A stretch of DNA of 21,005 nt from a virus: positions 1 to 21,005 of IMG/VR virus record IMGVR_UViG_3300021356_000206; one strand, written 5' to 3'. The position numbers and the translations under genes are program-made. Positions 3,392 to 17,156 of the stretch are shown here, one piece after another. Position 1 is the stretch's first letter. Every line of letters begins with the position of its first letter. The notes under the pieces are model-generated. The model made no database searches. It had not been told where the DNA came from and was given only the letters and a program-made list of their open reading frames with translations.

Positions 3392-3419
3392 TCTATATAT
3401 AGATAATCATTTTTTTTTG
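3392..3419 (+). promoter_or_regulatory. Perfect palindrome TCTATATATAGA followed by T9
   Basis: The 12-bp palindrome (3392-3403) is followed after a few bases by nine T residues. It may be a weak terminator for any leader transcript or a protein site. It sits just upstream of TTTG at 3422-3425, a possible -33 element for the late operon, though no good -7 box follows. Confidence 0.25.
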
Positions 3420-3465: not shown

Positions 3466-3513
3466 ATGAGTTACTTGGTACAGAATAATAATAATTTAAT
3501 TCTCTATGTATGA
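3466..3513 (+). CDS. Possible 15-codon leader peptide coupled to the chaperone gene
   Basis: An ATG at 3466 opens a 15-codon frame (MSYLVQNNNNLILYV). Its TGA at 3511-3513 overlaps the ATG of the chaperone gene at 3510 as ATGA, the junction style used throughout this window. It could serve translational coupling. So short a frame can easily arise by chance. Confidence 0.25.
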   Translation: MSYLVQNNNNLILYV

Positions 3514-4220
3514 GAAAAGAATATACTCTTAAAATCCCTGTTTCTTTAGACGATGTAACCATAGAACAATATCAAAAATATGTTAAGGCTATGGACGACA
3601 ATAAAGAAAATGAGGATTCTAATTTCATCAATCTAAAACTGCTAAACATCTTTTGTGGGATCACAATGAAAGAAGCTTATGAGTTACCTATTCAGGAGTT
3701 TGACTCCATACTAAGCCACCTGGTAAAAATATTATCAACTAAACCTAAGTTGCAAACCAGGTTTACAATGACAGATCCAAAAGGCAAGACGGTTGAATTT
3801 GGCTTTATACCAAATTTAGATAAGATGACTTTAGGAGAATATATAGATGCAGAAAATTATATGTCTGATTGGGAAACTGTGCATAAAGCGATGGCTGTTT
3901 TCTACAGACCGATTGTAGCAGGCAATAAAGACTTCTACAAAATAGAGAAGTACGAAGGAAGTGATAAATATTCAACATTAATGAAAGATGCCCCAGCTTC
4001 TATAGCTGCGGGCACTTTCCTTTTTTTTTTGAATTTAGGGATAGAGTTGTCGAAAATTACAATGGACTCTTTACGCAAACAGCAGCAGACATCGAAAGAG
4101 GATCTTACAGTCAAGGGTTTGGAAAAAAATGGGGATGGTATCAATCAATATACTCACTTTCTCAAGGAAATGTCTTCCAGATTGACCAAGCTACAGAACT
4201 TAATGTCCATAAAGCAATGA
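3510..4220 (+). CDS. Tail assembly chaperone, short (G-like) product
   Basis: This 236-residue protein begins MRKEYTLKIPVSLDDVTIEQYQKYVKAM and is helical and charged without membrane segments. Its role as a tail assembly chaperone is inferred from position and architecture. It is the first gene of the tail module upstream of the tape measure, and a second frame is open across its 3' end behind a slippery T10 run (4021-4030). In siphoviruses such chaperones coat the tape measure protein while the tube forms. In the zero frame the last 63 residues follow the T run (FFLNLGIELSKITMDSLRKQ). The start overlaps a mini-ORF by ATGA. Main uncertainty: the run length could be an assembly error. Confidence 0.62.
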   Translation: MRKEYTLKIPVSLDDVTIEQYQKYVKAMDDNKENEDSNFINLKLLNIFCGITMKEAYELPIQEFDSILSHLVKILSTKPKLQTRFTMTDPKGKTVEFGFIPNLDKMTLGEYIDAENYMSDWETVHKAMAVFYRPIVAGNKDFYKIEKYEGSDKYSTLMKDAPASIAAGTFLFFLNLGIELSKITMDSLRKQQQTSKEDLTVKGLEKNGDGINQYTHFLKEMSSRLTKLQNLMSIKQ

Positions 4221-4288
4221 TGTGGTTAGAGTTTGAAAAAGAGAAAAATGATTTAGAAGCAAAATTAATAAAACAATCTTATAAATGA
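3510..4288 (+). CDS. Tail assembly chaperone, long (GT-like) product by -1 frameshift at T10
   Basis: Shifting -1 in the T run gives a frame that stays open from the run to TGA 4286-4288, a total of about 259 residues. The new 86-residue tail has clear protein character: EFRDRVVENYNGLFTQ, then GFGKKWGWYQSIYSL and KAMMWLEFEKEKNDLEAKL. The frame ends with an ATGA overlap to the next gene, as expected for a real gene end. The -1 frame is closed by TAA at 3965-3967, so the shift must fall between 3968 and 4030, where T TTT TTT is the only obvious slip site. In lambda the analogous G/GT pair is made at a fixed ratio. Transcriptional slippage at T10 would give the same product. Confidence 0.62.
4021..4030 (+). 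promoter_or_regulatory. Slippery T10 run (frameshift signal)
   Basis: Ten T residues are read in the zero frame as CTT TTT TTT TTG. They contain T TTT TTT, a fit to the -1 slip pattern X XXY YYZ. A weak stem, AGAGTT (4043-4048) with GACTCT (4065-4070), starts 12 nt downstream. A run of this length can also cause RNA polymerase slippage. Confidence 0.6.
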
Positions 4289-4746
4289 TAGCAGTATACG
4301 AAACGTTAGATAAAATAAAAGATGAGCTAAGAACCAATCCTTCAACACAAACGGTCACGTTTGGAGATCTGATGGAAGTAGACTTAGCTAAAACAACTAT
4401 ATTTCCATTGGCACACGTTCAAGTAGGGAATGTAACATTCAGAGACCACATAATTGTAATGAATGTCTCTGTGCTATTTTTAGATATAGTAGATGACAAC
4501 AGAGAAACAAACTCTTTTGACCAATTTTATGATAATGACAACCTAATGGACATCCTAAACACTCAATTGGCGGCAGCCAATATTCTGCAAGAGAAGTTGA
4601 GACGTGGGTCCGCTTATGCCGATTTGTTCCAAATTAGAGGTGACATATCTGCTCAGCCATTCTTAGATAGATTTGAGAATCAATTAGCAGGATGGGGATT
4701 AGACCTAGTAATAGAATTACCTAATAAAACTACAAGCACTTGTTGA
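4285..4746 (+). CDS. Putative tail completion or terminator-like protein (153 aa)
   Basis: This 153-residue protein begins MIAVYETLDKIKDELRTNPSTQTVTFGDLMEVDLAKTTIFPLAHV. It continues with strand-rich RDHIIVMNVSVLFLDIVDD, a helical middle (LMDILNTQLAAANILQEKL), and DISAQPFLDRFENQLAGWGLDLVIELPN. An N-terminal helix, then a sheet, then a terminal strand matches the size and layout of small tail terminator/completion proteins that cap the tail tube. That role is inferred mainly from size and position. The start overlaps the long chaperone frame by ATGA. A neck protein is the alternative. Confidence 0.5.
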   Translation: MIAVYETLDKIKDELRTNPSTQTVTFGDLMEVDLAKTTIFPLAHVQVGNVTFRDHIIVMNVSVLFLDIVDDNRETNSFDQFYDNDNLMDILNTQLAAANILQEKLRRGSAYADLFQIRGDISAQPFLDRFENQLAGWGLDLVIELPNKTTSTC

Positions 4747-4747
4747 T

Positions 4748-4885
4748 ATGCCATTACCAAAGAAAAAACCAGGAGAAAAAAGAAAAGACTTTATGTCAAG
4801 ATGTATGTCTGACGCTACAATGATAAAAGAATATCCAAGACAGGATCAAAGAATTGCAGTTTGTGTAACACAATATGATAAATAA
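4748..4885 (+). CDS. Small standalone protein with RC...QRxAVC motif (45 aa)
   Basis: The 45-residue protein begins MPLPKKKPGEKRKDFMSRCMSD and ends DQRIAVCVTQYDK. The pattern F.(S/x)RC, about 18 residues, then (D/N)QR.AVC is, from memory, common as a short module attached to phage head proteases and other virion proteins. Here it stands alone between two tail genes. The two Cys (residues 19 and 39) could bind metal or pair. The gene lies one base after the upstream stop and overlaps the next start as TAATG. Its function is unknown, but it is probably a real gene. Confidence 0.65.
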   Translation: MPLPKKKPGEKRKDFMSRCMSDATMIKEYPRQDQRIAVCVTQYDK

Positions 4886-5343
4886 TGGCTAGTACACAAG
4901 AAATATTAAATAAGTTAGGACACGATTTGATTGCTGATATGGTAGATCAAATTGCGAGAAAAGATAAAGTAGCTACAAAAGAGCTCATAAATAGTTTTTC
5001 TTTTACTACAGATGAAAATACTTTGCAGATAAGTAGTTCCGCTAAACAATCTATTTTCATTAATAGAGGTAGGAATGCAGGAGGAAGACCTCCTATAAAA
5101 AAGATAATGGAATGGATGAAGGCTAAAAACATAAGAGGAAGAAGTTACAGAGGTCGATTTAGAAGATTAAGAGATGCTGCATTTTTCATATCTCTTAAAA
5201 TAGAAAGTGTAGGTTATAAAGGAATAAATTATGTAGAAAATAGTTTAATGAAGTTTAGACCGTACATAGAAGAAAACTTAGGATTATCTTATGCAGAAGA
5301 ACTAGAAGAAATACTAATAAACTTAGAGAAAAAAAATAGATAA
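4885..5343 (+). CDS. Putative neck/tail protein, HK97 gp10-like (152 aa)
   Basis: This basic 152-residue protein begins MASTQEILNKLGHDLIADMVDQIARKDKVATKELINSF. It has a strand region (TLQISSSAKQSIFINRGRNAGGRPP), a helix (IKKIMEWMKAKNIRG), an Arg-rich patch (RSYRGRFRRLRDAAFFISLKI), and ends in an acidic helix. A helix, then a substrate-like loop with RPP, then a long helix is typical of small tail-completion or neck proteins such as HK97 gp10. The assignment rests on style, size and place between the chaperone and large tail genes. The start overlaps the upstream stop (TAATG). Confidence 0.5.
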   Translation: MASTQEILNKLGHDLIADMVDQIARKDKVATKELINSFSFTTDENTLQISSSAKQSIFINRGRNAGGRPPIKKIMEWMKAKNIRGRSYRGRFRRLRDAAFFISLKIESVGYKGINYVENSLMKFRPYIEENLGLSYAEELEEILINLEKKNR

Positions 5344-5345
5344 AT

Positions 5346-7130
5346 ATGCCAGCATTTTATACACCACAATTAGCAAGAAGCCCTATATTTTATAAATCTG
5401 CTGCGGCATTAGCAGAAAAATTTACATACAGCATTTATATATATACTGGGCATTACACAACAAATAAACCAGCTACAGCAACTTACACAATTACAAAAGA
5501 TAAAATCGCAGATGTAGTTGAAGTTGGAACAATAACAAGTAAGACAGCGAACAAGCTTGTTGATTCAGTTAAACTGTTTAGCGAAACAGTTGAAGCTGGA
5601 GACTTAGTTCTTAATACAACTCAAAACACAATAGCTATAGTAAGCTCAGTAGATAGTGATACTACTTTAACTTTAGACACAGATATATTTCCTACTGCTG
5701 GAACTTTAGATTCGTATAAAATATTCAGTAAAACATCAGCTTCTATAGAAGTTGCTGAACTTATAAGAGATTATTTTAAAACTGAATATTATAATTTAGC
5801 AGTAGATGGTGTTTGGGTTGAAATAGATACTACAGTGCAGATAACATCTGGAACAACAACTGCTACAACAGCAGATAAATTAGTTGACACAAACAACACC
5901 TTTATAAGAAAACTATTACCCTCTTCTTTTACATTAACAGCAAATAATACAACTGATGCAACATCAGCAACTGTTTCAGCAGTTGATGATGATAATACTT
6001 TGTCTGTTTCTAGTGATATATTTGAAAGTGGAGATTCATATACAATAAATATGTCTGCTACCGCAAGCAATGGAACTCCTTGGATCACTTTAGATGGATA
6101 TGGCTTCTTTAAAGATGGTTTAAATCCTGGAAACTCGGTTATTGCTCAAAAGCAAGCCTTAATGACAAATGATAAAATTTACTTCATAAAAGGTAAGGAT
6201 ATCATTATCCCTGTTTATGCTCCTTTACAATCTACACTTGAATTTAGTGTAGGTGGAGTATCAGACGTGTATTGGAATTTAGTAGATGAATTTTGGAATA
6301 CTTATGATGTAGGATGGGGTACACTTATTAGTGATATAAAAGTTACAGATGGAGATATTGAGGATTCAGGAACTGCAGACGGAACAACAACTAACAAATT
6401 AGTAGATAGTTCTCAGGACTTCTTAACTACAGTAAAAGTAGGTATGACAGTATACAATACAACCGACAGCACGTTTACAAACGTGACTGCGGTTGATAGC
6501 GACACTCAATTAACATTGGCTGACGATATAATGGTTTCAGGAGATAGCTATGAAATACATAATGGAAAATCTTCAGATAAAATTCAATATGTAGTTATAT
6601 CTGAAACCGATAACTTTACAGGAGGAACAATTTCAATAACAGACGGTGTTGGATTATCTTTAACTCAAACAATTACACTTGAAGAATTAGATTGCTCTAA
6701 ATATACTGCATACAGGGTTATATTTTATAATAGATATGGCGCTCTACAAGACATTATATTCGACAGAAAATCAGTAAAGAACTTAGAAACAAGCTCAGAT
6801 GAATTTAAAAGAAGTACAGTTAATTTTAATTTAGCTAGCTTCTCTTACGATACTTATAAAGCTCAAAAACAAAGAGTAGATATTCAAGGAACAGAATCTT
6901 TAGTATTAAACACTTCTTTTTTAGATGAAGGAATATCTGATCCTATACAGGAATTATTAATGAGTCAACAAATATGGGTGGATGAAGGTATACAAAACAC
7001 TCAATCATCTATACATCCAGTAATCATTAGAAGTAGTTCTGTAGAGAAAAAAACAAGTGTAAACAATAAACTTGTTAGTTATACTATAGAATTTGAATAT
7101 GCAAACGATAAAATACAAAATATAAGATAA
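5346..7130 (+). CDS. Large tail structural protein with three inserted beta modules (594 aa)
   Basis: This 594-residue protein is Thr/Ser/Asp-rich and almost all beta. The base protein begins MPAFYTPQLARSPIFYKSA and includes ASIEVAELIRDYF, VWVEI, WITLDGYGFFKDGLNPG and a C-terminal region QRVDIQGTESLVLNTSFLDEG. This layout is familiar from Bacteroidota phage virion proteins. Three copies of a roughly 65-residue module interrupt it at about residues 62-127, 167-235 and 341-405. Each follows the pattern T..KLVDs..F....v..g..v.NTTd.t...V.aVDsD..L.l..DI..sgdsY.I. Their likely role is surface display on the tail or baseplate. There is no signal peptide. The next gene overlaps by one base (TAATG). 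Confidence 0.6.
   Translation: MPAFYTPQLARSPIFYKSAAALAEKFTYSIYIYTGHYTTNKPATATYTITKDKIADVVEVGTITSKTANKLVDSVKLFSETVEAGDLVLNTTQNTIAIVSSVDSDTTLTLDTDIFPTAGTLDSYKIFSKTSASIEVAELIRDYFKTEYYNLAVDGVWVEIDTTVQITSGTTTATTADKLVDTNNTFIRKLLPSSFTLTANNTTDATSATVSAVDDDNTLSVSSDIFESGDSYTINMSATASNGTPWITLDGYGFFKDGLNPGNSVIAQKQALMTNDKIYFIKGKDIIIPVYAPLQSTLEFSVGGVSDVYWNLVDEFWNTYDVGWGTLISDIKVTDGDIEDSGTADGTTTNKLVDSSQDFLTTVKVGMTVYNTTDSTFTNVTAVDSDTQLTLADDIMVSGDSYEIHNGKSSDKIQYVVISETDNFTGGTISITDGVGLSLTQTITLEELDCSKYTAYRVIFYNRYGALQDIIFDRKSVKNLETSSDEFKRSTVNFNLASFSYDTYKAQKQRVDIQGTESLVLNTSFLDEGISDPIQELLMSQQIWVDEGIQNTQSSIHPVIIRSSSVEKKTSVNNKLVSYTIEFEYANDKIQNIR
5529..5726 (+). repeat. Protein-level repeat module 1 (KLVDS...VDSDT...DIF)
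   Basis: First of three related roughly 65-residue beta modules in the tail protein (residues 62-127). Key residues: KLVDS, NTTQNT, VDSDTTLTL, DIF and DSYKI. DNA identity to the other copies is low, so the likeness is mainly at protein level. Confidence 0.6.
5844..6050 (+). repeat. Protein-level repeat module 2
   Basis: Second copy (residues 167-235), with KLVDT, NTTDAT, VDDDNTLSV, DIF and GDSYTI. It is inserted after VWVEIDTTVQI and before GTPWITLDGYGFF, two pieces that would otherwise be neighbours. Confidence 0.6.
6366..6560 (+). repeat. Protein-level repeat module 3
   Basis: Third copy (residues 341-405), with KLVDSSQDF, VYNTTDST, VDSDTQLTL, DIM and GDSYEI. It is the copy closest to the apparent consensus. 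Confidence 0.62.
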
Positions 7131-9205
7131 TGTTTGTAATACAGTTATTTATAAAAGATAATGATGGATCTGACATCCGAGTAGATATGTTTAAGGATGA
7201 GTCTGTGTCTATAACACAGACCATCCAAGACGTTAGAGATATCGGAAGTGTATATACTGATTTCACAAGAACTTTTAGTTTACCTGCTTCATCTACAAAC
7301 AATAAAATATTTAAGCATTATTATAATTCAGATATCGTTAGTTCTGATAATAACTTGATTAGTGACTTTGATGCAAGAGTAAGAAGAGATGCAAGAATAG
7401 AATTAAACCACACTCCATTTAAAAAAGGCAAAATAAGATTAGATGGGGTAAATATGAAAGACGGAAAACCTTATACCTATAAAATAACATTTTTCGGTAA
7501 TACAGTAAACTTAATAAGTTTGATGAAGGATGATAAATTAAGTTCTCTTGATTTATCTGCTTTTAATACAGTATATACAGCTACTCAATTAAAATCAAAA
7601 CTTGTTAATGCGGTTTCTGATTTAATTGTGCCATTGATTACCCATACGAGAAGGTTAGTTTATGATTCTGGATCAACAACTTATGATGGAATTGTAGATA
7701 ATTTAGCAAATAGCGGAGGAGGAGATAATCAAGGTTTATTATTAACTGAGTTAAAATATGCTCTTAGAATACATAAAATAGTTGAAGCAATTCAGTCTAA
7801 ATATAATTTAACATTTTCAGATGATTTCTTTAACACAACTAACACCACATATTACAATCTGTTTATGTGGTTACATAGAAAATCTGGAGATGTAGGTTCT
7901 GGTTCACAAGTAGCAGAGCCTTTTGTTGAGCAGATAGATACCTTTCAAACAGGTACATTTAATGCTGGATCAGGATATGATAGTTCAATTGTTTCAGACG
8001 GAACGACCCTAACTGTTCAGGGAGATGATAATTTAAACTTTCAAATAGACGTAACTCCTTCAGACAACTCAATAACATATACTATTGATGCTTTTTTAGA
8101 CGGAAGTCTAGAATACAGTATTTCAGGAACAGGAGCTCAAACATTGGATATGATTGGTTTGTGTACTCCTAGTGTTGTTTGTGAAGGAGATTACACGTTT
8201 AATATAAGTACAACTTCAACTTCACCTTTATCGGTTTCTGGTTCAGTTACTATGACTCTTGAAGGAGGTATTTCTTTACCTGAAACAACTTATAGTGTAA
8301 CTTTTAGTTCTATAAGTCTTCAACAGAATAGACCTTTTTTACTGAGCTCGGAAATACCTGATATGAAAAATATAGATTTTCTTACAGGATTGTTTAAAAT
8401 GTTTAATTTAACTGCGTTTGTAGAGGATGATGGAACAATTAAGATTCAAACATTAGATTCTTTTTATGATGCGGGTGTAGATTATGATATAACTGATTAT
8501 ATAGATATAAATGATTCTGAGGTAAATACTGCTTTACCGTATAAAGAAGTGGACTTCAGGTATCAAGGAAGAGACTCTTTCTTTTCTATAACACACGAAA
8601 AGATATTTGGTTTAGAATGGGGTACAGATGAATATATAACTGAAGATCCAGACGGAACTGTTTATAAAGTAGAGTTACCTTTTGAGCATCACAAGTTCCA
8701 AAAGCTTTTAGATCTAAACGACAGTTCTGGAGACACTTCAACAGTTATTCAATGGGGATGGTCTGCAAACGAGAATCAAGAACCTTATATCGGAAAACCT
8801 TTATTATTTTATCCTATAAGAGTAACTTCAGGAGAAAGAATATATTTTAGAGAGTCTACAGGATCTTCAGGAGATAATACAAGTTACATTGTACCATCTA
8901 ACTCAATAGAGTTAAACAACACATCACAAACAATACATTTTGGCACTGAACTTAATGAGTATACCAATACTGTATCTACGCAAAGCTTATTTAGAAATTA
9001 TTATAACACTTACATAAGTGATGTATTTGATGCTAAAAATAGGCTTACTAGAATAACAGCATTCTTACCAGCAGAAATTCTATTGAATTTCACGCTGGCT
9101 GATAGATTTATAATAAATCAAAAGAGCTATAAAATAAACTCAATAACTACTGATTTATATAATGGTAAAAGTGAAATAGAATTATTAAACGACTTCAATG
9201 CTTAA
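7130..9205 (+). CDS. Large tail structural (hub/baseplate-like) protein (691 aa)
   Basis: This 691-residue protein begins MFVIQLFIKDNDGSDIRVDMFKDESVSITQTIQDVRDIGSVYTDFTRTFSLPASSTNNKIFKHYYN. The segment D(F/Y)TRTFSLPAS..NN.IF.HYYN recalls a tail protein family of Bacteroidota phages. A beta-rich region follows (SGGGDNQG, then residues about 270-385), and later DYIDINDSEVNTALPYKEVDFRYQGRDSFFSITHEKIFGLEWG. Its size, beta content and place just before the tape measure suggest a baseplate or distal tail protein. No enzyme motif is seen. It begins by TAATG overlap and its 3' end overlaps the next small gene by 8 bp. Confidence 0.55.
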   Translation: MFVIQLFIKDNDGSDIRVDMFKDESVSITQTIQDVRDIGSVYTDFTRTFSLPASSTNNKIFKHYYNSDIVSSDNNLISDFDARVRRDARIELNHTPFKKGKIRLDGVNMKDGKPYTYKITFFGNTVNLISLMKDDKLSSLDLSAFNTVYTATQLKSKLVNAVSDLIVPLITHTRRLVYDSGSTTYDGIVDNLANSGGGDNQGLLLTELKYALRIHKIVEAIQSKYNLTFSDDFFNTTNTTYYNLFMWLHRKSGDVGSGSQVAEPFVEQIDTFQTGTFNAGSGYDSSIVSDGTTLTVQGDDNLNFQIDVTPSDNSITYTIDAFLDGSLEYSISGTGAQTLDMIGLCTPSVVCEGDYTFNISTTSTSPLSVSGSVTMTLEGGISLPETTYSVTFSSISLQQNRPFLLSSEIPDMKNIDFLTGLFKMFNLTAFVEDDGTIKIQTLDSFYDAGVDYDITDYIDINDSEVNTALPYKEVDFRYQGRDSFFSITHEKIFGLEWGTDEYITEDPDGTVYKVELPFEHHKFQKLLDLNDSSGDTSTVIQWGWSANENQEPYIGKPLLFYPIRVTSGERIYFRESTGSSGDNTSYIVPSNSIELNNTSQTIHFGTELNEYTNTVSTQSLFRNYYNTYISDVFDAKNRLTRITAFLPAEILLNFTLADRFIINQKSYKINSITTDLYNGKSEIELLNDFNA

Positions 9206-9341
9206 ACATATATTAGATTTATTAAAATTAGATGATTATTATGGGGTATCTCCATATATCGACATAGCTAAGGGTAAATATGAAGCTCCTAGCAATTTAA
9301 AAGAAGCAATAACAAAACATAAAAGAAAGATAAATGGCTAA
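9198..9341 (+). CDS. Small basic protein between tail genes (47 aa)
   Basis: The frame from ATG 9198 to TAA 9339-9341 gives 47 residues, MLKHILDLLKLDDYYGVSPYIDIAKGKYEAPSNLKEAITKHKRKING. It overlaps the upstream tail gene by 8 bp and the tape measure gene by 8 bp, as expected of a real gene in a coupled operon. The basic C-terminus and helical look do not reveal a function. A small tail assembly helper is possible from context. Confidence 0.6.
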   Translation: MLKHILDLLKLDDYYGVSPYIDIAKGKYEAPSNLKEAITKHKRKING

Positions 9342-11406
9342 ACAAGAATATGTATTAAAGGTAGTTCTTGACGATGGAGAGTTAAGAGTAAAGATACCAG
9401 GAATAGTAAAAAGCACAAATGATATGTCTAAGGCTTTTGACAATGCTACAAAAAGCAGTCAAAAGTATAATAAAACTGCCAAACAAAACAAACAAGTAAA
9501 TGACGATATGATTTCATCTGCAGGTCTTGCAGGTGCAACGCTCACTGAATTTGGTAGAACAATATCAGATTTACCTTTTGGTATTACAGCGATTACAAAC
9601 AACTTGTCTCAATTAGGTACACTATTTACAACATTAGTTGCTAAAACTGGAGGTACAACAAAAGCATTTTCATTATTAGGTAGACAACTAGCAAAAGGAC
9701 CTTTAGGAATTATTTTGATATTTCAAGTATTAATATCCCTTCTACAGCAATTCCAAAAAGATATTGTAGGGTTTATTATGGGTGTTGAAAAAGCAAATGA
9801 AGCGACCAAAAAACTAAGATCCAATTTTTTTGACTTAACTGAAGAAATAAAAGAAAACAACAAAGAACTAGGAAAACAAGATAAACAAATATTAAAAGCA
9901 ATAAAAAGACTAGAGGGTCAAGTAGAAATAATAAACAGAAACAGAAACAGTCAAAGAAATGCAAATAAATCATTAGAGGAGTTTAATGAAGCAAATCAAT
10001 CTACATTAAATCTTATAGATCAAAGAGTAAAAAAATTAAGAGAGCTTGGAGTTGTTATAGATGAAACCAGAATTTATGAAGAAGGTTATATTGATTCTCT
10101 TAGAAATGGAGCTGGAACATTAGGTCAAATAGGAGAAGAATTAAATCAGAGAAGAATAGATATTGAAACTCAAAGAATACAAGGATTATCTGGAGATGTA
10201 CAGTTGTTAGAAGCTGAACTTGATTTGTTTATAGATAGACAGGAAGCTTTAAATGTAAAAGAAAAAGATTATATAAAATCTGAAGAATATCAAGTTTTAG
10301 TTGCTAGAATAGCGAAAGCTAAATCAGACGCAGCTAGAAAAGCCTTGAAGGAAGATTTAGAGATCTCATCGTTCTTAATGGTTGAAGATATTGCTATGTC
10401 TTTTGAAGAGGCTTTTAGAGGGTATTTTGATGAATTTAAAGATCCTTTAGTTGTAGATGAGAATTTAATTGATGCAGATGCTTTTATAGAAGAGTTTAGA
10501 AAGTTCGGTCAAATAAGAGAAGAGATATCTGAAAAAACAGAAATAGAAATATTAAATGACCAAGAAAAAGCAATACTAAAAAGGATAGATAATTTATCAG
10601 AAGAAGTTAAAGCTATTATTGATGTTGAAAAGCTTAAAACAGATGTTGTTGAATTTTTTAGTAATAAAAGATTTGAAATAATTCAAAAAGAGTTTGATAA
10701 AAACCTAAAAAAGCTGAGAGATGAGATAGAAGATGAAGGAGACAAACTGCTTAAAAGAGCTAAACAAATAGCTGAAGCATTAAAGTTTGGTATAGATGCT
10801 ATTACTGCTCAAATAGACGCAGAAATATCTCAGGAAGAGAGAAAAACGATGCTTATTAATAATGAATTAAAAAAGAGAATTATTAATGAAAAATTAACCG
10901 CAGAACAAAAAGAAGCTATAAACAATCAAATAGAAAGAAATGAAGTTGCTTTGCAAGAAAAAAGAGACAAGCTTGCTGAAAAAGCATTTAAAGCTCAAAA
11001 AGCGGTTTCTATAGCTGAAGCACTAATCAATACTTATGAAATGGCAGTTAAAGCATATAAAGCTTTAGCTGGCATACCTATAGTTGGTCCTGCTTTGGGA
11101 ACTGCCGCAGCAGCAGCAGCAAGTATATTCGGATTAAAACAAGTTGACGCAATAAGAAAAACTCAATTTGTTCCTAGTGCAGCTCCTGGATCAACTAGAG
11201 TTTCTGGATTAGGTGGGGCAGGTGCTACTGGAGGCGGAAGACAAGATCCTACATTCAACATAGTAGGTACAGGTCAACAATTCCAGTTATCTCAAGCAAT
11301 TGCACAAAGAACTGGAGAACCTGTTAAAGCTTATGTTGTAACAGGAGATGTAAGATCTGGATTAGCTCTTGAACGTAATATAATTAAAGGATCTAAGCTA
11401 GGATAA
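9334..11406 (+). CDS. Tail tape measure protein (690 aa)
   Basis: The tape measure fills the tail tube, sets tail length and later passes into the host envelope. Evidence: 690 residues, mostly long charged helices (about residues 150-560), a hydrophobic segment near residues 121-140 (PLGIILIFQVLISLL), and a second hydrophobic stretch at about 566-610 (MAVKAYKALAGIPIVGPALG, then an Ala-rich run and IFGLKQVDAI). The C-terminus is Gly-rich and ends QRTGEPVKAYVVTGDVRSG, a style common in Bacteroidota phages. At about 1.5 angstrom per residue the tail would be near 100 nm (inference). It follows the chaperone, completion and tail genes, and the head module begins directly after it. Confidence 0.88.
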   Translation: MAKQEYVLKVVLDDGELRVKIPGIVKSTNDMSKAFDNATKSSQKYNKTAKQNKQVNDDMISSAGLAGATLTEFGRTISDLPFGITAITNNLSQLGTLFTTLVAKTGGTTKAFSLLGRQLAKGPLGIILIFQVLISLLQQFQKDIVGFIMGVEKANEATKKLRSNFFDLTEEIKENNKELGKQDKQILKAIKRLEGQVEIINRNRNSQRNANKSLEEFNEANQSTLNLIDQRVKKLRELGVVIDETRIYEEGYIDSLRNGAGTLGQIGEELNQRRIDIETQRIQGLSGDVQLLEAELDLFIDRQEALNVKEKDYIKSEEYQVLVARIAKAKSDAARKALKEDLEISSFLMVEDIAMSFEEAFRGYFDEFKDPLVVDENLIDADAFIEEFRKFGQIREEISEKTEIEILNDQEKAILKRIDNLSEEVKAIIDVEKLKTDVVEFFSNKRFEIIQKEFDKNLKKLRDEIEDEGDKLLKRAKQIAEALKFGIDAITAQIDAEISQEERKTMLINNELKKRIINEKLTAEQKEAINNQIERNEVALQEKRDKLAEKAFKAQKAVSIAEALINTYEMAVKAYKALAGIPIVGPALGTAAAAAASIFGLKQVDAIRKTQFVPSAAPGSTRVSGLGGAGATGGGRQDPTFNIVGTGQQFQLSQAIAQRTGEPVKAYVVTGDVRSGLALERNIIKGSKLG

Positions 11407-11444
11407 GAAATAAAACAAATTAACTAAAAAAAGATTTACTAAGT

Positions 11445-12614
11445 ATGGAAGAATTAAAACTTATCGAACTAGTCATAGATGAAGAAAATGACTTTGCAGG
11501 AATACAGGCAATATCTATTGTAGATGAGCCTGCAATAGAAGAAGATTTTGTTGCGCTTGCATCACACGAAATAAAACTTGCTGAAGTTGATAAAGAGAAG
11601 AAAATATTAATGGGAGCAGCCTTAGTTCCTAATAAAAAGATATATAGATCAAATGGAGAAGAAGAATATTATATCTATTTCAGTGAAGATACCGTCAAAA
11701 AAGCCTCAGAGCTTTTTTTGACTAAAGGTAATCAAAATAATTCTACTCTAGAACACGAAATTGAACTTAATGGGCTTTCTGTTGTAGAATCTTGGATTGT
11801 AGAAGATGAAAAACAAGATAAATCTAGAAAATACGGTTTTAATGTACCTGTAGGAACCTGGATGGTATCTATGAAAGTAAATAATGATGAAATTTGGGAT
11901 AACTACGTAAAAACAGGTAAAGTCAAAGGTTTTTCTATTGAAGGTCACTTTGTAGACGCTATGAAACACAATGAAGAGGAGCAAGAAGCACTTTCTTTGA
12001 TAGAAGAGCTTACAGATGTCTTAGATATTGAGCTTGAAACGTATGGAGATTATGGAAGCGGTGTTAGAAACAACGCTAGAAGAGGAATTGAGCTAAATAA
12101 GAAGGTAAATAATAAATGCGCTACAAGCGTGGGAAAAATAAGAGCCCAGCAATTGTCAAGAGGTGAGAAATTGAGTGTGTCCACAATTAAGAGGATGTAT
12201 TCTTATCTGTCTAGAGCTGCAGAGTATTATGATCCAAGCGATTCTAAGGCTTGTGGTACTATTTCATATCTATTATGGGGTGGAAAAGCAGGTTTGAACT
12301 GGTCAAGAGGCAAATTAAGAGAATTGGGCGAATTAAAATTAAAATCTATGGTTATAGATGAAGAATATGCAATCATAGACGACAAATTAGCCTATTCAAA
12401 TCCTGAATCTGCTGAATTAGCAGCTAAAGACGTGGGATGTGAAGGATATCACGAGCACGAATACGAAGGAAAGATATGGTATATGCCTTGCGAACAGCAT
12501 TCTGTTGACGCAGGAAAAAATACTAAAAGTCCTTGTTGGGATGGATACGAACAAAAAGGGTGGAAAATTGGTAAAAGTGGAAAAAGAGTACCTAACTGTC
12601 AAAAGAAAAAATGA
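11445..12614 (+). CDS. XkdF-like prohead serine protease with two C-terminal add-on domains (389 aa)
   Basis: The protease cleaves scaffold and capsid subunits during head maturation. The N-terminal domain (about residues 1-180) matches the XkdF/S78-type layout. His104 in STLEHE and Ser164 in KGFSIEG are the likely catalytic His and Ser, with VVESWIVE (Glu115) and VGTWMVSMKV in between. A second domain (about 200-295) reads VRNNARRGIELNKKVNNKCAT, then SVSTIKRMYSYLSRAAEYYD and SYLLWGGKAGLNWSRGKL, a module often joined to phage head proteases. The C-terminal region (about 325-389) is Cys/His-rich (C332, H336, H338, C349, H352, C364, C385) and ends CWDGYEQKGWK...VPNC. Metal binding there is plausible. 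The gene opens the head module, 38 bp after the tape measure, and overlaps the next gene by ATGA. Confidence 0.85.
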   Translation: MEELKLIELVIDEENDFAGIQAISIVDEPAIEEDFVALASHEIKLAEVDKEKKILMGAALVPNKKIYRSNGEEEYYIYFSEDTVKKASELFLTKGNQNNSTLEHEIELNGLSVVESWIVEDEKQDKSRKYGFNVPVGTWMVSMKVNNDEIWDNYVKTGKVKGFSIEGHFVDAMKHNEEEQEALSLIEELTDVLDIELETYGDYGSGVRNNARRGIELNKKVNNKCATSVGKIRAQQLSRGEKLSVSTIKRMYSYLSRAAEYYDPSDSKACGTISYLLWGGKAGLNWSRGKLRELGELKLKSMVIDEEYAIIDDKLAYSNPESAELAAKDVGCEGYHEHEYEGKIWYMPCEQHSVDAGKNTKSPCWDGYEQKGWKIGKSGKRVPNCQKKK

Positions 12615-12820
12615 ATAAAAAGAAATTAACAGTAAGTAGAACCAGCCCGCGTTCCTCAAGACGCGGCTGTTTATGTGCAGATGGTAAAAAATATTCAAGA
12701 AAATGTTGTAAAGGTTATTTGATCAATCAAGGAATAGGAAATATTTATGGAGAAGGAGTATTACTATTAGAGTCAGGAGGTAATTTATTACAAGAAAACG
12801 GAAACAATATAAAATTATAA
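12611..12820 (+). CDS. Small basic Cys-rich protein (69 aa)
   Basis: This 69-residue protein begins MNKKKLTVSRTSPRSSRRGCLCADGKKYSRKCCKGYLINQGIGNI. Four cysteines in C20-x-C22 and C32-C33, in a very basic setting, suggest a small metal-bound or disulfide-linked knot. The Gly- and Leu-rich tail (GEGVLLLESGGNLLQENGNN) resembles the end of short fibre or decoration proteins. Similar RRxCLC...CC proteins occur, from memory, next to head genes in Bacteroidota phages, with no known role. It overlaps the protease gene by ATGA and lies 3 bp before the next gene. Confidence 0.65.
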   Translation: MNKKKLTVSRTSPRSSRRGCLCADGKKYSRKCCKGYLINQGIGNIYGEGVLLLESGGNLLQENGNNIKL

Positions 12821-12823
12821 ATA

Positions 12824-13276
12824 ATGTCAAAAAAAATATCTCAATTAAATGCAGCTACAGAATTACAAGGACCAGAAACTTTTGCAGTAGTTCAAAGTAG
12901 TGAAACTAAAAAAGGAACTATAAGTCAAGTTATAAATTATATACACGCTAGTAATATTACTGTTTCGTCAGGAGATACTGTAGATTTAGATGATTCAGCT
13001 TATGATGATACAAGATTAGTAAAATTAACTTGGACTGGTAGTGCAGGAAGTATGACTATGAATTTACCAGATGCTACAACTTCTAAAAGCACAAATAGAT
13101 TAATAAGGTTTGTTACAAACGGAGGGTTTAGCACAAATACAAGAGTTAATTTAACTCCTGTTTCTGGTCAGACATTAGATGGTTCTTCAAGCTCTTATGA
13201 ATTGAATGTTGCTTATGAAGGATTAATGCTTTGGTCAGATGGTTCTGAATGGTTTATAATCCAGAAGAAAGCATAA
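12824..13276 (+). CDS. Putative head decoration or short fibre protein (150 aa)
   Basis: The N-terminus MSKKISQLNAATELQGPETFAVVQSSETKKGTISQV has the pattern K(I/L)S(Q/E)LxxAtxLxgxExxxVVQxxxTKK, a known style for the virion-anchoring end of phage fibres. The rest is a beta-rich C-terminal domain of the fibre-head kind: TRLVKLTWTGSAG, NRLIRFVTNGGF, LTPVSGQTLDGSSSSYEL and ending LWSDGSEWFIIQKKA. There is no membrane segment or enzyme motif. Its place between protease and scaffold suggests a head-attached decoration or head fibre; a tail fibre tip is the alternative. Confidence 0.6.
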   Translation: MSKKISQLNAATELQGPETFAVVQSSETKKGTISQVINYIHASNITVSSGDTVDLDDSAYDDTRLVKLTWTGSAGSMTMNLPDATTSKSTNRLIRFVTNGGFSTNTRVNLTPVSGQTLDGSSSSYELNVAYEGLMLWSDGSEWFIIQKKA

Positions 13277-13329
13277 CGAAAATACAACAGACAGATAAAT
13301 AATTAATTAACTATATATATTTTATTATT

Positions 13330-13842
13330 ATGAAAGCAAGCGAAATCGTAGAAAAATTCAAAAACGTTCTTTTGAATGCTGACGAAGAGCAAGTACAACC
13401 TGAAATGGAAATGAAAGAAGAGTCTGACATTGAAGTTAAAGAGGAAGAAGTTGTTTTAAGTGAGCAAAAAGAAGAAGTAAAAGAAAGCGAAGAAACAACA
13501 GACCTTTCTGAAGAAGTCGAAGCTGGTTATGATAAAAAAGAGATGGAAGAAGTTCCGTCTGAAGAAAAAGAACCAGAATATGTGACTAAAGAAGAGTTAG
13601 CAAAAGCGATTGCTGAAGTAAAAGCAATGGTTTCTAAACTATCTCAAGAAGAAGAAGCTTTAGAAGTTCCACAAGAACTAGAAGCTGAAGAAAAACAAGA
13701 ATTATCTGCTCAAGAGCCAGAGGTTGAGCCAATTAAACATAGCCCTGAATCTGAAGTAGGTAAAAAACAAGAGTTTCTATATGCTCAAAAAAGAAATATG
13801 AGCACTAGAGACATTGTATTTAACAAAATATCAAACTTTTAA
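13330..13842 (+). CDS. Probable acidic scaffold protein (170 aa)
   Basis: This 170-residue protein is very rich in Glu with many Lys, and mostly helical or disordered (EEEVVLSEQKEEVKESEE). A coiled-coil stretch lies at about residues 95-115 (TKEELAKAIAEVKAMVSKL). The helical start VEKFKNVLLN and the short, more hydrophobic end NMSTRDIVFNKISNF frame the acidic core. Scaffolds typically use such an end to dock onto capsid protein. It sits just before the major capsid gene and after the protease, the usual scaffold position. No sequence family is firmly recognised. The upstream gap of 53 bp is AT-rich. Confidence 0.7.
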   Translation: MKASEIVEKFKNVLLNADEEQVQPEMEMKEESDIEVKEEEVVLSEQKEEVKESEETTDLSEEVEAGYDKKEMEEVPSEEKEPEYVTKEELAKAIAEVKAMVSKLSQEEEALEVPQELEAEEKQELSAQEPEVEPIKHSPESEVGKKQEFLYAQKRNMSTRDIVFNKISNF

Positions 13843-13854
13843 TATTAAATAATT

Positions 13855-14802
13855 ATGGCTACTACTACAAGTATAACTACTACTTACGCAGGCGAATTTA
13901 GTGGCAAGTATATATCTGCTGCTTTATTATCGTCTCCGACAATCGAAAATGGAAACATTGAGATTAAACCAAACATTAAGTACAAAGAAGTAATCAAAAA
14001 AGTTGCAACTGATGCTAACGTAATCAAAGACGCTACTTGTGACTTTACAGACACTGCTACTGTTACTTTAACTGAAAGAATCCTACAACCAGAAGAGTTC
14101 CAAGTGAACTTAGAACTTTGTAAAAAAGACTTTATTTCTGACTGGGAAGCTGTTCAGATGGGATATTCTGCATATTCAAATATGCCTCCAAAATTCTCTG
14201 ATTTCTTAATCGGACACGTTGCAGGTTTAGTTGCAGAGAAAAACGAGCAAAACATCTGGGGTGGTGTTAACGGAAACGCAGGAGAATTTGACGGATTTAC
14301 AGTTACTATGTTAGCTGATTCAGACGTAAACGATGCTGCTAACGATTCAGAAACTGCATTTACAAGTTCTAACATCGTTTCTTTATTAGAAAACGTTGTT
14401 GACGCTTTACCTTCAGCAGTTTATGGAAAAGAAGATTTAAAAATCTATGTTCCAACAATTGCTTGGCAATCATACATCAGACAATTAGGCGGATATGCTG
14501 CGAATGGTGTTGGTGCTGCAGGTTACGAAAATAGAGGGTCTCAATGGTATAATCAAGGCAACGCTTTATCATTTGATGGTATTGAGGTTGTTTTAGCACC
14601 AGGAATGCCTTCTGACCATATTGTTGCAGGACAAAAATCTAACTTATATTTCGGTACAGGATTAATTTCTGACCACAATGAAGTAAAAGTATTAGATATG
14701 GCTGACTTAGACGGATCTCAAAATGTAAGAGTAATTATGAGATTTACGGCAGGTGTTCAGTATGGTATCGGAAGTGATCTAGCATTACTTACTTTAGCAT
14801 AA
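13855..14802 (+). CDS. Major capsid protein, HK97-fold type (315 aa)
   Basis: This 315-residue protein is the main head shell subunit. It begins MATTTSITTTYAGEFSGKYISAALLSSPTIENG. Further segments are typical of HK97-fold capsid proteins of this phage group: IKPNIKYKEVIKKVATDANVIKDATCDF, then PEEFQVNLELCKKDF, FLIGHVAGLVAEKNEQNIWGG, KIYVPTIAWQSYIRQLGG, and the C-terminal VRVIMRFTAGVQYGIGSDLALLTLA. Codons lean to C-ending forms (GAC, AAC) more than in neighbours, as expected of a highly expressed gene. It follows the scaffold by 12 bp and is followed by a hairpin. No long N-terminal pro-region is present, consistent with a separate scaffold gene. Confidence 0.88.
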   Translation: MATTTSITTTYAGEFSGKYISAALLSSPTIENGNIEIKPNIKYKEVIKKVATDANVIKDATCDFTDTATVTLTERILQPEEFQVNLELCKKDFISDWEAVQMGYSAYSNMPPKFSDFLIGHVAGLVAEKNEQNIWGGVNGNAGEFDGFTVTMLADSDVNDAANDSETAFTSSNIVSLLENVVDALPSAVYGKEDLKIYVPTIAWQSYIRQLGGYAANGVGAAGYENRGSQWYNQGNALSFDGIEVVLAPGMPSDHIVAGQKSNLYFGTGLISDHNEVKVLDMADLDGSQNVRVIMRFTAGVQYGIGSDLALLTLA

Positions 14803-14820
14803 TAAATTATTGTATAATCG

Positions 14821-14841
14821 ATGGGCGGGATTACCGCCCAT
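14821..14841 (+). terminator. Hairpin after the capsid gene (no U tract)
   Basis: ATGGGCGG (14821-14828) pairs perfectly with CCGCCCAT (14834-14841) around GATTA. No T run follows. It probably stabilises the capsid mRNA end or partly ends transcription, raising capsid output over downstream genes. Confidence 0.6.
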
Positions 14842-14860
14842 TAACTAAAACTATTATAAT

Positions 14861-15472
14861 ATGAGTTGCGATTTATCACAAGGAAGACAAAGACCCTGTA
14901 AAGATTCAGTAGGTGGATTGAAAGCAGTTTACTTTCTAAACTATGGAGAAAGTACATACGATGTTTCTTTTGATGCTACAAATACAGATCAAGTTGACGG
15001 ATTTGGAACAGGATTAACTTGTTACAGATATGACTTAAAAGGCAACTCCAATTTAGAGCAAACGATTGTATCTTCAACAGATACTGGAGGAACGTTTTTT
15101 GAGCAAGTTCTAACATTGGTTTTACCTAAACTTACTGTTAAAGATCATAAAGAATTAAAGTTATTATCTTTCGGGAGACCTCACGTTATCATTAAAGATA
15201 ACAATGACAATTATTTTGTTGCAGGTCTTGAGCACGGTATGGATGTAACAGGAGGAACAATTTCTTCTGGATCAGCGATGGGAGATTTAAGCGGATATAC
15301 ATTAACTTTAAGCGGAGGCGAAAGAGCTCCTGCTAACTTTATTGATGTTACTGCTGAAACAGACACACAATTAACATTTGGTGATTCAAGTACAATGACT
15401 GTTAGTCCAGGTTCTGCTTCAGATGTTGATGTAGATGACGATCAATCTGGAATACCAGGAGGAGGAAATTAA
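14861..15472 (+). CDS. Probable tail tube protein (203 aa)
   Basis: This 203-residue beta-rich protein begins MSCDLSQGRQRPCKDSVGGLKAVYFLNYGE. Notable segments are LTCYRYDLKGNSNLEQTI, GGTFFEQVLTLVLPKLTVKDHKELKLLSFGRPHVIIKDNNDNYFVAGLEHGMDVTGG and MGDLSGYTLTLSGGERAPANF. The pattern of strands with 'FGRPHVIIxD.N.N.F.AG.E.G...TGG..sG.AMGD..GYTLTL.G.E..PA' fits tail tube proteins of Bacteroidota phages, recalled rather than checked. The last 40 residues are an acidic, low-complexity tail ending SGIPGGGN. It lies between the capsid and a strong terminator, apart from the other tail genes. Confidence 0.62.
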   Translation: MSCDLSQGRQRPCKDSVGGLKAVYFLNYGESTYDVSFDATNTDQVDGFGTGLTCYRYDLKGNSNLEQTIVSSTDTGGTFFEQVLTLVLPKLTVKDHKELKLLSFGRPHVIIKDNNDNYFVAGLEHGMDVTGGTISSGSAMGDLSGYTLTLSGGERAPANFIDVTAETDTQLTFGDSSTMTVSPGSASDVDVDDDQSGIPGGGN

Positions 15473-15490
15473 TGATTTCATAACCTTTGT

Positions 15491-15520
15491 AAAAAGCCTC
15501 GCATTAAGCGGGGCTTTTTT
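15491..15520 (+). terminator. Strong rho-independent terminator
   Basis: AAAAAGCCTCGC (15491-15502) pairs with GCGGGGCTTTTT (15508-15519), with one G-U pair and loop ATTAA, and a T tract follows. The A5 on the left arm makes it usable from the other strand also. It closes the head unit ending with the tube gene. Confidence 0.92.
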
Positions 15521-15556
15521 ATTAAAACACTATTGTACTTTTTTGATTATCTATAT

Positions 15557-15913
15557 ATGATAGTATTACAACCTATTACAACTTCTCAAACGTTACGGTT
15601 TATACCAAGATCTTATAAAGAAGATAGTTTGGTTCAGCTCGTAATTACAGAAGACGGTACAAGAAAAACAGAAACCTTAACAGGCTTAACTGCAACATAC
15701 AATGGTAACTTTATTGACTTACCTTGTACGTTTAGCATATTATCAGAAGGTAAGTTATATTCTATTGAACTCACTAGGTCTGGTAATTTATTATATAGAG
15801 ATAAAGTATATTGTACTTCTAAGACAGACAGAACAATACCGCACACACTAAATACAGGTAAGTATGATGAGCATACTGCATCTCCTACAGGACAAAAATA
15901 CATAACAATTTAA
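15557..15913 (+). CDS. Small beta-rich virion-associated protein (118 aa)
   Basis: I chose ATG 15557 (MIVLQPITTSQTLRFIPRSY) instead of the longer TTG frame from 15533, because the extra residues MYFFDYLY lie in the stretch right after the terminator. The 118-residue product is nearly all strands (SLVQLVITEDGTRKTETL, FIDLPCTFSILSEGKLYSIELTRSGNLLYRDKVYCTS) and ends HTLNTGKYDEHTASPTGQKYITI. Small beta proteins with this pattern (F.L..... LYRG.I(F/Y)CT.qt) appear, from memory, near portal genes of Bacteroidota phages with no proven role. It lies 1 bp before the portal gene. Confidence 0.62.
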   Translation: MIVLQPITTSQTLRFIPRSYKEDSLVQLVITEDGTRKTETLTGLTATYNGNFIDLPCTFSILSEGKLYSIELTRSGNLLYRDKVYCTSKTDRTIPHTLNTGKYDEHTASPTGQKYITI

Positions 15914-15914
15914 T

Positions 15915-17156
15915 ATGGCAAGAAGAAGAAAAACACAAGAGTTCAAGGACAATATTAGAGTTGTTAATTTACAAGGATATACGATTCCTGAAATAAAGGA
16001 ACATTATAAGAATGATTGGGTAACTTATGGAGAAGAAAATGATTACTTTGACAACCTAATAGACTTGTATTTAAGCAGCCCTACTAACTCTTGTTGCGTC
16101 AACGGTATCGTAGATATGATTTATGGTAGAGGATTAGATGCAACAGATAGTTCTGAGAAACCTGAAATGTATGCTGAAATGAAACAGCTATTAAAGCCTG
16201 ATCAAGTTAAAAGAGTAGTAAACGATTTTAAGTTATTAGGTCAAGCTGCAATACAAGTAGTATACAACAGAAACAAGACCAAGATTATGAATATACTTCA
16301 TTTTCCTATGGAAACGTTAAGAGCTGAAAAAGCTCAAGACGGAATAATAAAAGCTTATTATTATCATCCTAAATGGTCTGAAATAAAACCTACGGATAAA
16401 CCTAAAAGGATTCCTACGTTTGGAAACGGAAGAAGAGGTGATTTAAGAGAGCTTTATATATGTAAACCATATAGACCAGGCTTCTATTATTATGCACCTG
16501 TAGATTATCACGGATGTCTACAGTATTGCTCTCTAGAAGAAGAGGTATCAAACTACCACATAAACAACATAAAAAACGGCTTACAGCCGTCTTTACTGAT
16601 AAACTTTAACAATGGTGTGCCTGATGAAGAGGCACAACAAATTATCGAAAGAAAGATTCAAGACAAATTTGGAGGAACTTCTAACTCTGGTAAGTTTATT
16701 TTAGCGTTTAATGATGATCCAGATAGAAAGGCAGACATCGAACCTATACATTTACCTGATGCTCACGCTCAATATCAATTCTTAGCCGATGAAGCGAGAG
16801 AAAAAATAATGTTAGGTCACAGAGTTGTTTCTCCAATATTGCTTGGTATAAAAGATAATACAGGCTTTGGTAATAACGCAGAGGAGCTTAGAACAGCTTC
16901 AATCCTTATGGATAACATAGTTGTTAGACCATTCCAACAAGCGCTCTTAGAATGCTTTAAAATGCTTCTAGAGTTTAACCAGATAGATCTTAACTTATAC
17001 TTTGTAACTCTACAACCAATTGAGTTTACTGAATTAGACAATATTCAGACTCAAATTAAGAGAGAAGAAGAGACAGGTGAGAAGTTATCTGCTATAGATA
17101 AAATTAAGAATATATTTAAAACAAAAGAAGATGAAGGCACTATTCATAACGACTGA
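15915..17156 (+). CDS. Portal protein (413 aa)
   Basis: The portal forms the twelve-subunit ring at the head vertex through which DNA passes. The 413-residue protein has the usual order: N-terminal region (WVTYGEENDYFDNLIDLYLSSPTNSCCVNGIVDMIYGRGL), a strand-rich clip/wing region, then SLEEEVSNYHINNIKNGLQPSLLINFNNG at residues 206-234, NSGKFILAFNDD at 257-268, the helix DAHAQYQFLADEAREKIMLGHRVVSPILLGI at 282-312, and GFGNNAEELRTASILMDNIVV at 317-337. These are the standard landmarks of HK97/SPP1-type portals. It overlaps the connector gene by 26 bp. Its place after the capsid gene is unusual, and no terminase is next to it in this window. Confidence 0.87.
   Translation: MARRRKTQEFKDNIRVVNLQGYTIPEIKEHYKNDWVTYGEENDYFDNLIDLYLSSPTNSCCVNGIVDMIYGRGLDATDSSEKPEMYAEMKQLLKPDQVKRVVNDFKLLGQAAIQVVYNRNKTKIMNILHFPMETLRAEKAQDGIIKAYYYHPKWSEIKPTDKPKRIPTFGNGRRGDLRELYICKPYRPGFYYYAPVDYHGCLQYCSLEEEVSNYHINNIKNGLQPSLLINFNNGVPDEEAQQIIERKIQDKFGGTSNSGKFILAFNDDPDRKADIEPIHLPDAHAQYQFLADEAREKIMLGHRVVSPILLGIKDNTGFGNNAEELRTASILMDNIVVRPFQQALLECFKMLLEFNQIDLNLYFVTLQPIEFTELDNIQTQIKREEETGEKLSAIDKIKNIFKTKEDEGTIHND

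Follow-up and report, generated by a model that had tools for sequence, protein, structure and literature searches.

A conserved run of nine or ten Ts at the junction of two selected reading frames in a probable tail assembly chaperone gene of marine phages

In phage lambda, a single gene of the tail block specifies both gpG, an N-terminal domain on its own, and gpGT, in which the same domain continues into a C-terminal domain read in the -1 frame, the stop codon of the C frame overlapping the start of the next gene. Such frameshifts are ribosomal in lambda and in HK97-like phages (PMC5009743, PMC3711429). Two products are likewise made at a homopolymer of about at least nine bases in Thermus dnaX (A9), Shigella mxiE/spa13, and Citrobacter tssM1 (A11), and for the A runs of dnaX and tssM1, slippage was proven by RNA analysis (PMC1088944, PMC4256274). 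Bacterial slippage usually takes place on stretches of nine A or T residues (PMC1088944), and the RNA polymerase of E. coli slips on at least seven Ts, with T preferred to A (PMC6260861). The locus described here resembles both groups.

The window is the 21,005-base virus record IMGVR_UViG_3300021356_000206 at its full length, the DNA of a marine phage whose hosts are probably flavobacteria. Head and tail genes lie on its + strand, in the order 3510-4220, 4285-4746, 4885-5343, 5346-7130, and 7130-9205. The features relevant to this analysis are as follows.

3510-4220, + strand: zero-frame ORF for the putative short product of 236 aa, comprising a conserved N-terminal domain (residues 1-173) and a 63-aa zero-frame extension
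4021-4030, + strand: T10 run, the candidate slip site; the zero frame reads CTT TTT TTT TTG and contains U_UUU_UUU
4028-4288, + strand: C-terminal domain in the -1 frame, the end of the predicted transframe product; 86 aa plus stop, FGKKWGWYQSIY...EFEKEKNDLE
4031-4220, + strand: dual-coded segment of ~190 nt, both frames, about 60 codons
4285-4746, + strand: next gene, PHROG 30964 (unknown function), overlapping the -1 frame stop by ATGA
9334-11406, + strand: tape measure protein gene, PHROG 2854 (phrog_2854) tape measure, E 2.4e-6

Direct reading of the window bore out what a sequence-only reading had described, namely a zero frame that stays open past the T10 run to 4220 (62 sense codons, then TGA at 4218-4220) and a -1 frame that is open from 3968 to 4288, with an 86-residue tail and a predicted transframe product of 173 + 86 = 259 aa. 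From the run on, the 86 codons of the -1 frame translate as FEFRDRVVENYNGLF...KWGWYQSIYSL...MMWLEFEKEKNDLEAKLIKQSYK. The ATGA overlap with the next gene is likewise seen, at 4285-4288, where it joins the -1 frame stop to the start of that gene; translational coupling of the two through this overlap is likely from the arrangement. The zero-frame ORF matches PHROG 32199 (E 4e-17). A T9 run also lies at 3410-3418, in the noncoding gap ~90 nt upstream of the gene start. As we picture it, one gene would give rise to two proteins sharing an N-terminal domain: most copies would end in the zero frame (236 aa), while in a fraction the T run would cause a shift into the -1 frame, by which the conserved, helical C-domain of 86 residues is added (259 aa).

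Homologous loci were gathered from IMG/VR scans with the zero-frame protein, the -1 domain, and an N-domain profile, together with one GTDB genome scan, using peptide patterns that carried no T-run requirement. Duplicate removal left 172 loci; in three of these the contig stops at the site or short of it, which leaves 169 complete distinct loci. Alignment of the homologues identifies the -1 frame domain as a strongly conserved family, and its HMM matches in the -1 frame in 169 of 169 complete loci; the two domains stand in the -1 relation at T9 or T10 every time, which is the lambda G/GT layout proposed earlier, with a pure T run. No fused homologue and no +1 relation occurs among these 169 loci. 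The slip site is T9 in 147 and T10 in 22, and neither T8 nor T11 was observed in the same set. Run positions 1 to 9 are T in 100% of complete loci, including the third bases of three codons, and the zero frame presents the X_XXY_YYZ heptamer U_UUU_UUU at each of them. The flanks are less fixed, with G preceding the run in 63% of loci and A following it in 67%. About 40 further distinct loci of the Nonlabens-phage (P12024) type, found with P12024L gene 40 as query and mostly 27-33% identical to it in amino acids, are all in the -1 relation and all T9 or T10; no alternative slip signal appears in relatives, even at 27-33% identity. The total with a T9/T10 run is about 210 related phage sequences, without exception. 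Both matches from the GTDB genomes are contigs of flavobacterial MAGs, with T10 and T9. Elsewhere in the same contigs, 270,303 nt of other long ORFs contain no run of at least nine Ts, two T8 runs, and 21 T7 runs, and Phe-Phe is written TTTTTT in 67 of 209 cases. The combination of T run and -1 frame far exceeds chance.

Both frames are under selection over the overlap, for about 60 codons. When C-frame amino acids were fixed and codons redrawn, a zero frame open as far as observed had a median P of about 0.006 per locus, and the converse test, with zero-frame amino acids fixed, gave 0.002 per locus. Synonymous change was compared with an amino acid-specific expectation in 16 members of the close clade, the relatives being 74-89% identical to the window in nucleotides. 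C-frame synonymous observed/expected (O/E) over the overlap was 0.55 (codon bootstrap 0.39-0.72); the zero-only part had a value of 1.10, the C-only tail 0.80, and the next gene 0.90. The reduction sets in at the T run and lasts until roughly the stop codon of the zero frame. In 12 other clades the overlap O/E was 0.37-0.66, with the short C-only tail as low or lower in three. Among diverged pairs (C identity at most 65%), zero-frame amino acid identity was 39% versus 31% under a null in which the C protein is kept constant and no stop is allowed in the zero frame (z about 10, uncorrected for phylogeny); this is supporting evidence only, and most of the excess falls within 20 codons of the run. 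Selection on both frames over such a length implies that the short product's own C terminus also matters. The zero-frame stop appears to be placed where the conserved C motif MMWLEFEKEK forces zero-frame stops. The middle of the overlap (4095-4157, GGTTTGGAAAAAAATGGGGATGGTATCAATC) is nearly invariant, with 2 of 521 fourfold comparisons differing in the close clade, a nucleotide conservation perhaps beyond what dual coding needs; the segment holds an A7. Two of the checks suggested by the sequence-only reading came out in its favor, with purifying selection evident in each frame (overlap O/E 0.55, zero frame kept open) and 9 or 10 Ts in all complete loci; the contrary outcomes it had named, a true run of T8 or T11 or conservation of one frame only, are excluded, since the run never has 8 or 11 Ts, the frames are never fused, and both are kept. 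A -1 relation at every locus, an unvarying T run, and the selection seen in both frames together point to one gene making products of 236 and 259 aa, and we infer that both proteins are produced.

In the AlphaFold2 model of the zero-frame product, the N-domain is predicted with confidence (pLDDT mostly 84-94). A long helix (163-197) runs across the slip site (F172-F173), and a further helix, at 209-234, has low confidence. Predicted alone, the C-domain is helical, with a mean pLDDT of 71, and in these models both frames would start by continuing a helix. Fold matches in BFVD were to uncultured phages, P12024S, Flavobacterium phage 6H, and, weakly, one protein named 'Tail assembly chaperone' (E 0.03, prob 0.97). 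Structure matches from VIA-align involved a long helix only or had Z near 2 and were taken as uninformative. Phage 6H was dropped as a comparison: although its corresponding site reads U_UUU_UUC, the -1 frame there closes immediately, and two shifts would be needed to reach the ORF downstream. On the minus strand of 6H, at about 10050-10430, the fold-related 191-aa ORF (10352-10927) ends just past U_UUU_UUC; the open stretch beyond it is unannotated and possibly reflects recoding together with homopolymer errors.

The gene had been described as lying at the right place before the tape measure; it is indeed upstream on the same strand, but four genes lie between, the tape measure gene being the fifth downstream and starting at 9334. 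Next come an XkdF-like protease region (11445), a probable capsid gene (13855), and a portal gene (15915), and the resulting order over 9334-17156 (tape measure, protease, capsid, portal) is unusual. A tape measure homologue was present in 7 of 7 relatives, ~5-6 kb downstream where distances were read. No terminase was seen within the 21,005-base window; in Nonlabens phage P12024L the terminase directly precedes the recoded gene. One contig of 49,843 bases has the same module, and most longer related contigs are about 30-37 kb. Weak profile matches were obtained to phrog_166 'tail protein' (E 7e-4, in 4 of 28) and to NF047360 'phage tail assembly chaperone G' (0.037, in 1). A Pfam search returned no credible match, a PDB sequence search no relative, and a comparison of the C-domain with cultured phages no match. 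Based on a layout like that of G/GT, the location in the tail module, a tape measure homologue in all seven relatives, and the weak profile hits, our best guess is that the products probably form a tail assembly chaperone pair of the G/GT type. Coating of the tape measure protein would then be the task of the N-domain, and recruitment of tail tube subunits that of the C-domain. Given that the gene does not adjoin the tape measure and matches no curated family, we do not count it as a proven case of that class.

These same two features, together with the position of the P12024L gene directly after the terminase, speak for the alternative that the recoding is real but the pair serves as some other tail or neck assembly factor with two C termini, a role compatible with either mechanism of recoding. 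We consider this unlikely, as a conserved -1 transframe pair in a tail gene block is typical of chaperones and the weak profile and fold matches are to tail or chaperone proteins. Far less probable is that the C-domain is a separate gene translated by reinitiation at an internal start, as P12024L genes 40 and 41 are annotated. The annotated start of P12024L_41 is an ATG that overlaps the stop of the zero frame, and the window has an ATGA at 4217-4220, but conserved C-frame residues (FR.R...LF and KWGWY) lie upstream of those ATGs, conservation of the domain reaching further upstream than any start codon it could use in its own frame; reinitiation in the window would yield just 23 aa, and there would be no need for the T run to be conserved. 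Homopolymers are error-prone in sequencing, and an artifact of this kind, or decay of a gene that is in truth continuous, would also separate the frames. The probability of this is close to nil: about 210 distinct contigs, the cultured P12024L/S, and two MAG contigs share the frame relation and are never fused, and the zero-frame extension is itself under selection, by which we regard error and decay as refuted. Recoding of one kind or the other, by polymerase or by ribosome, is almost certain from these patterns.

Transcriptional slippage is the most likely mechanism for the two-product gene, at marginally better than an even chance. RNA polymerase would slip on the T9 or T10 run and add one U (or lose two) in part of the transcripts; loss of one U would do little harm, since most such messages reach a stop within 10 nt. 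Ribosomal -1 frameshifting on U_UUU_UUU by tandem slippage of tRNA-Phe, as in lambda G/GT, would give the same two products and dual coding, and both mechanisms lead to an identical protein from this site. This ribosomal explanation, whose chance we place somewhat below even, has in its favor a perfect X_XXY_YYZ heptamer in the right frame at every locus and the lambda and HK97-like precedents. To our knowledge, the frameshifts known from phage tail chaperones are all ribosomal, which counts against polymerase slippage, and lambda-type sites likewise occur without strong structures. Against frameshifting by the ribosome, the uninterrupted run is at least nine at every locus although seven suffice for the heptamer, and the Z position is never C. 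Neither Phe codon of the run is ever TTC, while upstream Phe codons are TTT:TTC = 495:151 (TTC 23%); in most loci (next codon TAT, TAC, or TGG), a change of the eighth T to C would be synonymous in both frames and keep a heptamer, U_UUU_UUC. A stem-loop downstream is a common, though not indispensable, stimulator of programmed -1 ribosomal frameshifting; across 76 loci, the RNA just past the run showed no hairpin of excess stability (mean z -0.04), folding of the window at this place gave z +1.6, and an Rfam scan and a search for downstream RNA structure returned nothing. U_UUU_UUU is, moreover, much less shifty in E. coli than A_AAA_AAG (PMC5009743). The length of nine may be forced in part by protein constraint at run positions 1 and 9: the residue before FF is always V, L, I, or F and the C-frame residue at the ninth T is always L or F, which can explain T at these two positions. 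FF is followed by a codon for Y, W, S, L, or F, the first base of which is invariably T. The minimum of T9 and the lack of a downstream hairpin incline us slightly toward RNA polymerase slippage, which we hold to be a little the more probable of the two once recoding is granted.

Whatever the mechanism, the recoding site is real and conserved in many phages, and the dual coding that goes with it is long. No published description of this gene, of a T-run shift in a tail chaperone, or of a chaperone made by transcriptional slippage was found in the openly accessible full-text literature. The chance is close to even, if just short of it, that we see here the first case of a phage tail-chaperone pair produced through slippage of RNA polymerase, spread over a large group of flavobacterial phages from the sea, with a nonslipped form that carries a selected C-terminal extension and 190 nt that encode two functional ends. 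More than 200 sequences and two cultured phages provide a natural data set on a question that is rarely testable, namely whether transcription can set a conserved ratio of transframe proteins in a phage that follows the lambda G/GT plan. Annotation is corrected as well, in that a second product and a likely chaperone role had been missed in P12024L/S ('hypothetical proteins') and in PHROGs of unknown function.

Among known systems, direct homologues are found in the Nonlabens phages as P12024L genes 40/41 and P12024S genes 38/39 (29% aa identity), with T9 and the -1 relation; their zero frame ends 77 nt after the run, and the pairs are annotated as two unrelated hypothetical proteins. P12024L gene 41 and P12024S gene 39 (locus positions 3522-3689) resemble the -1 domain of genes 40 and 38. 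The T run lies here in a phage tail gene, where slippage is only a candidate, as compared to the A runs of dnaX and tssM1; moreover, the short form of those genes arises from an early stop (PMC4256274), whereas here it continues through a long, selected second frame. No sequence similarity to lambda G/GT is shown. Lambda G/T adjoins the tape measure gene H, while the present gene precedes its tape measure by four genes, and the GGGAAAG-type signal attributed to lambda in the sequence-only reading is replaced by a T9/T10 run. The annotated overlap of lambda G and T is 19 nt (10115-10133), with the slip near the end of G, in contrast to about 190 nt of dual coding here, where the short form has 62 extra codons past the run. 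The 60-codon dual coding implies that the end of the short form is functional too, a feature not seen in lambda.
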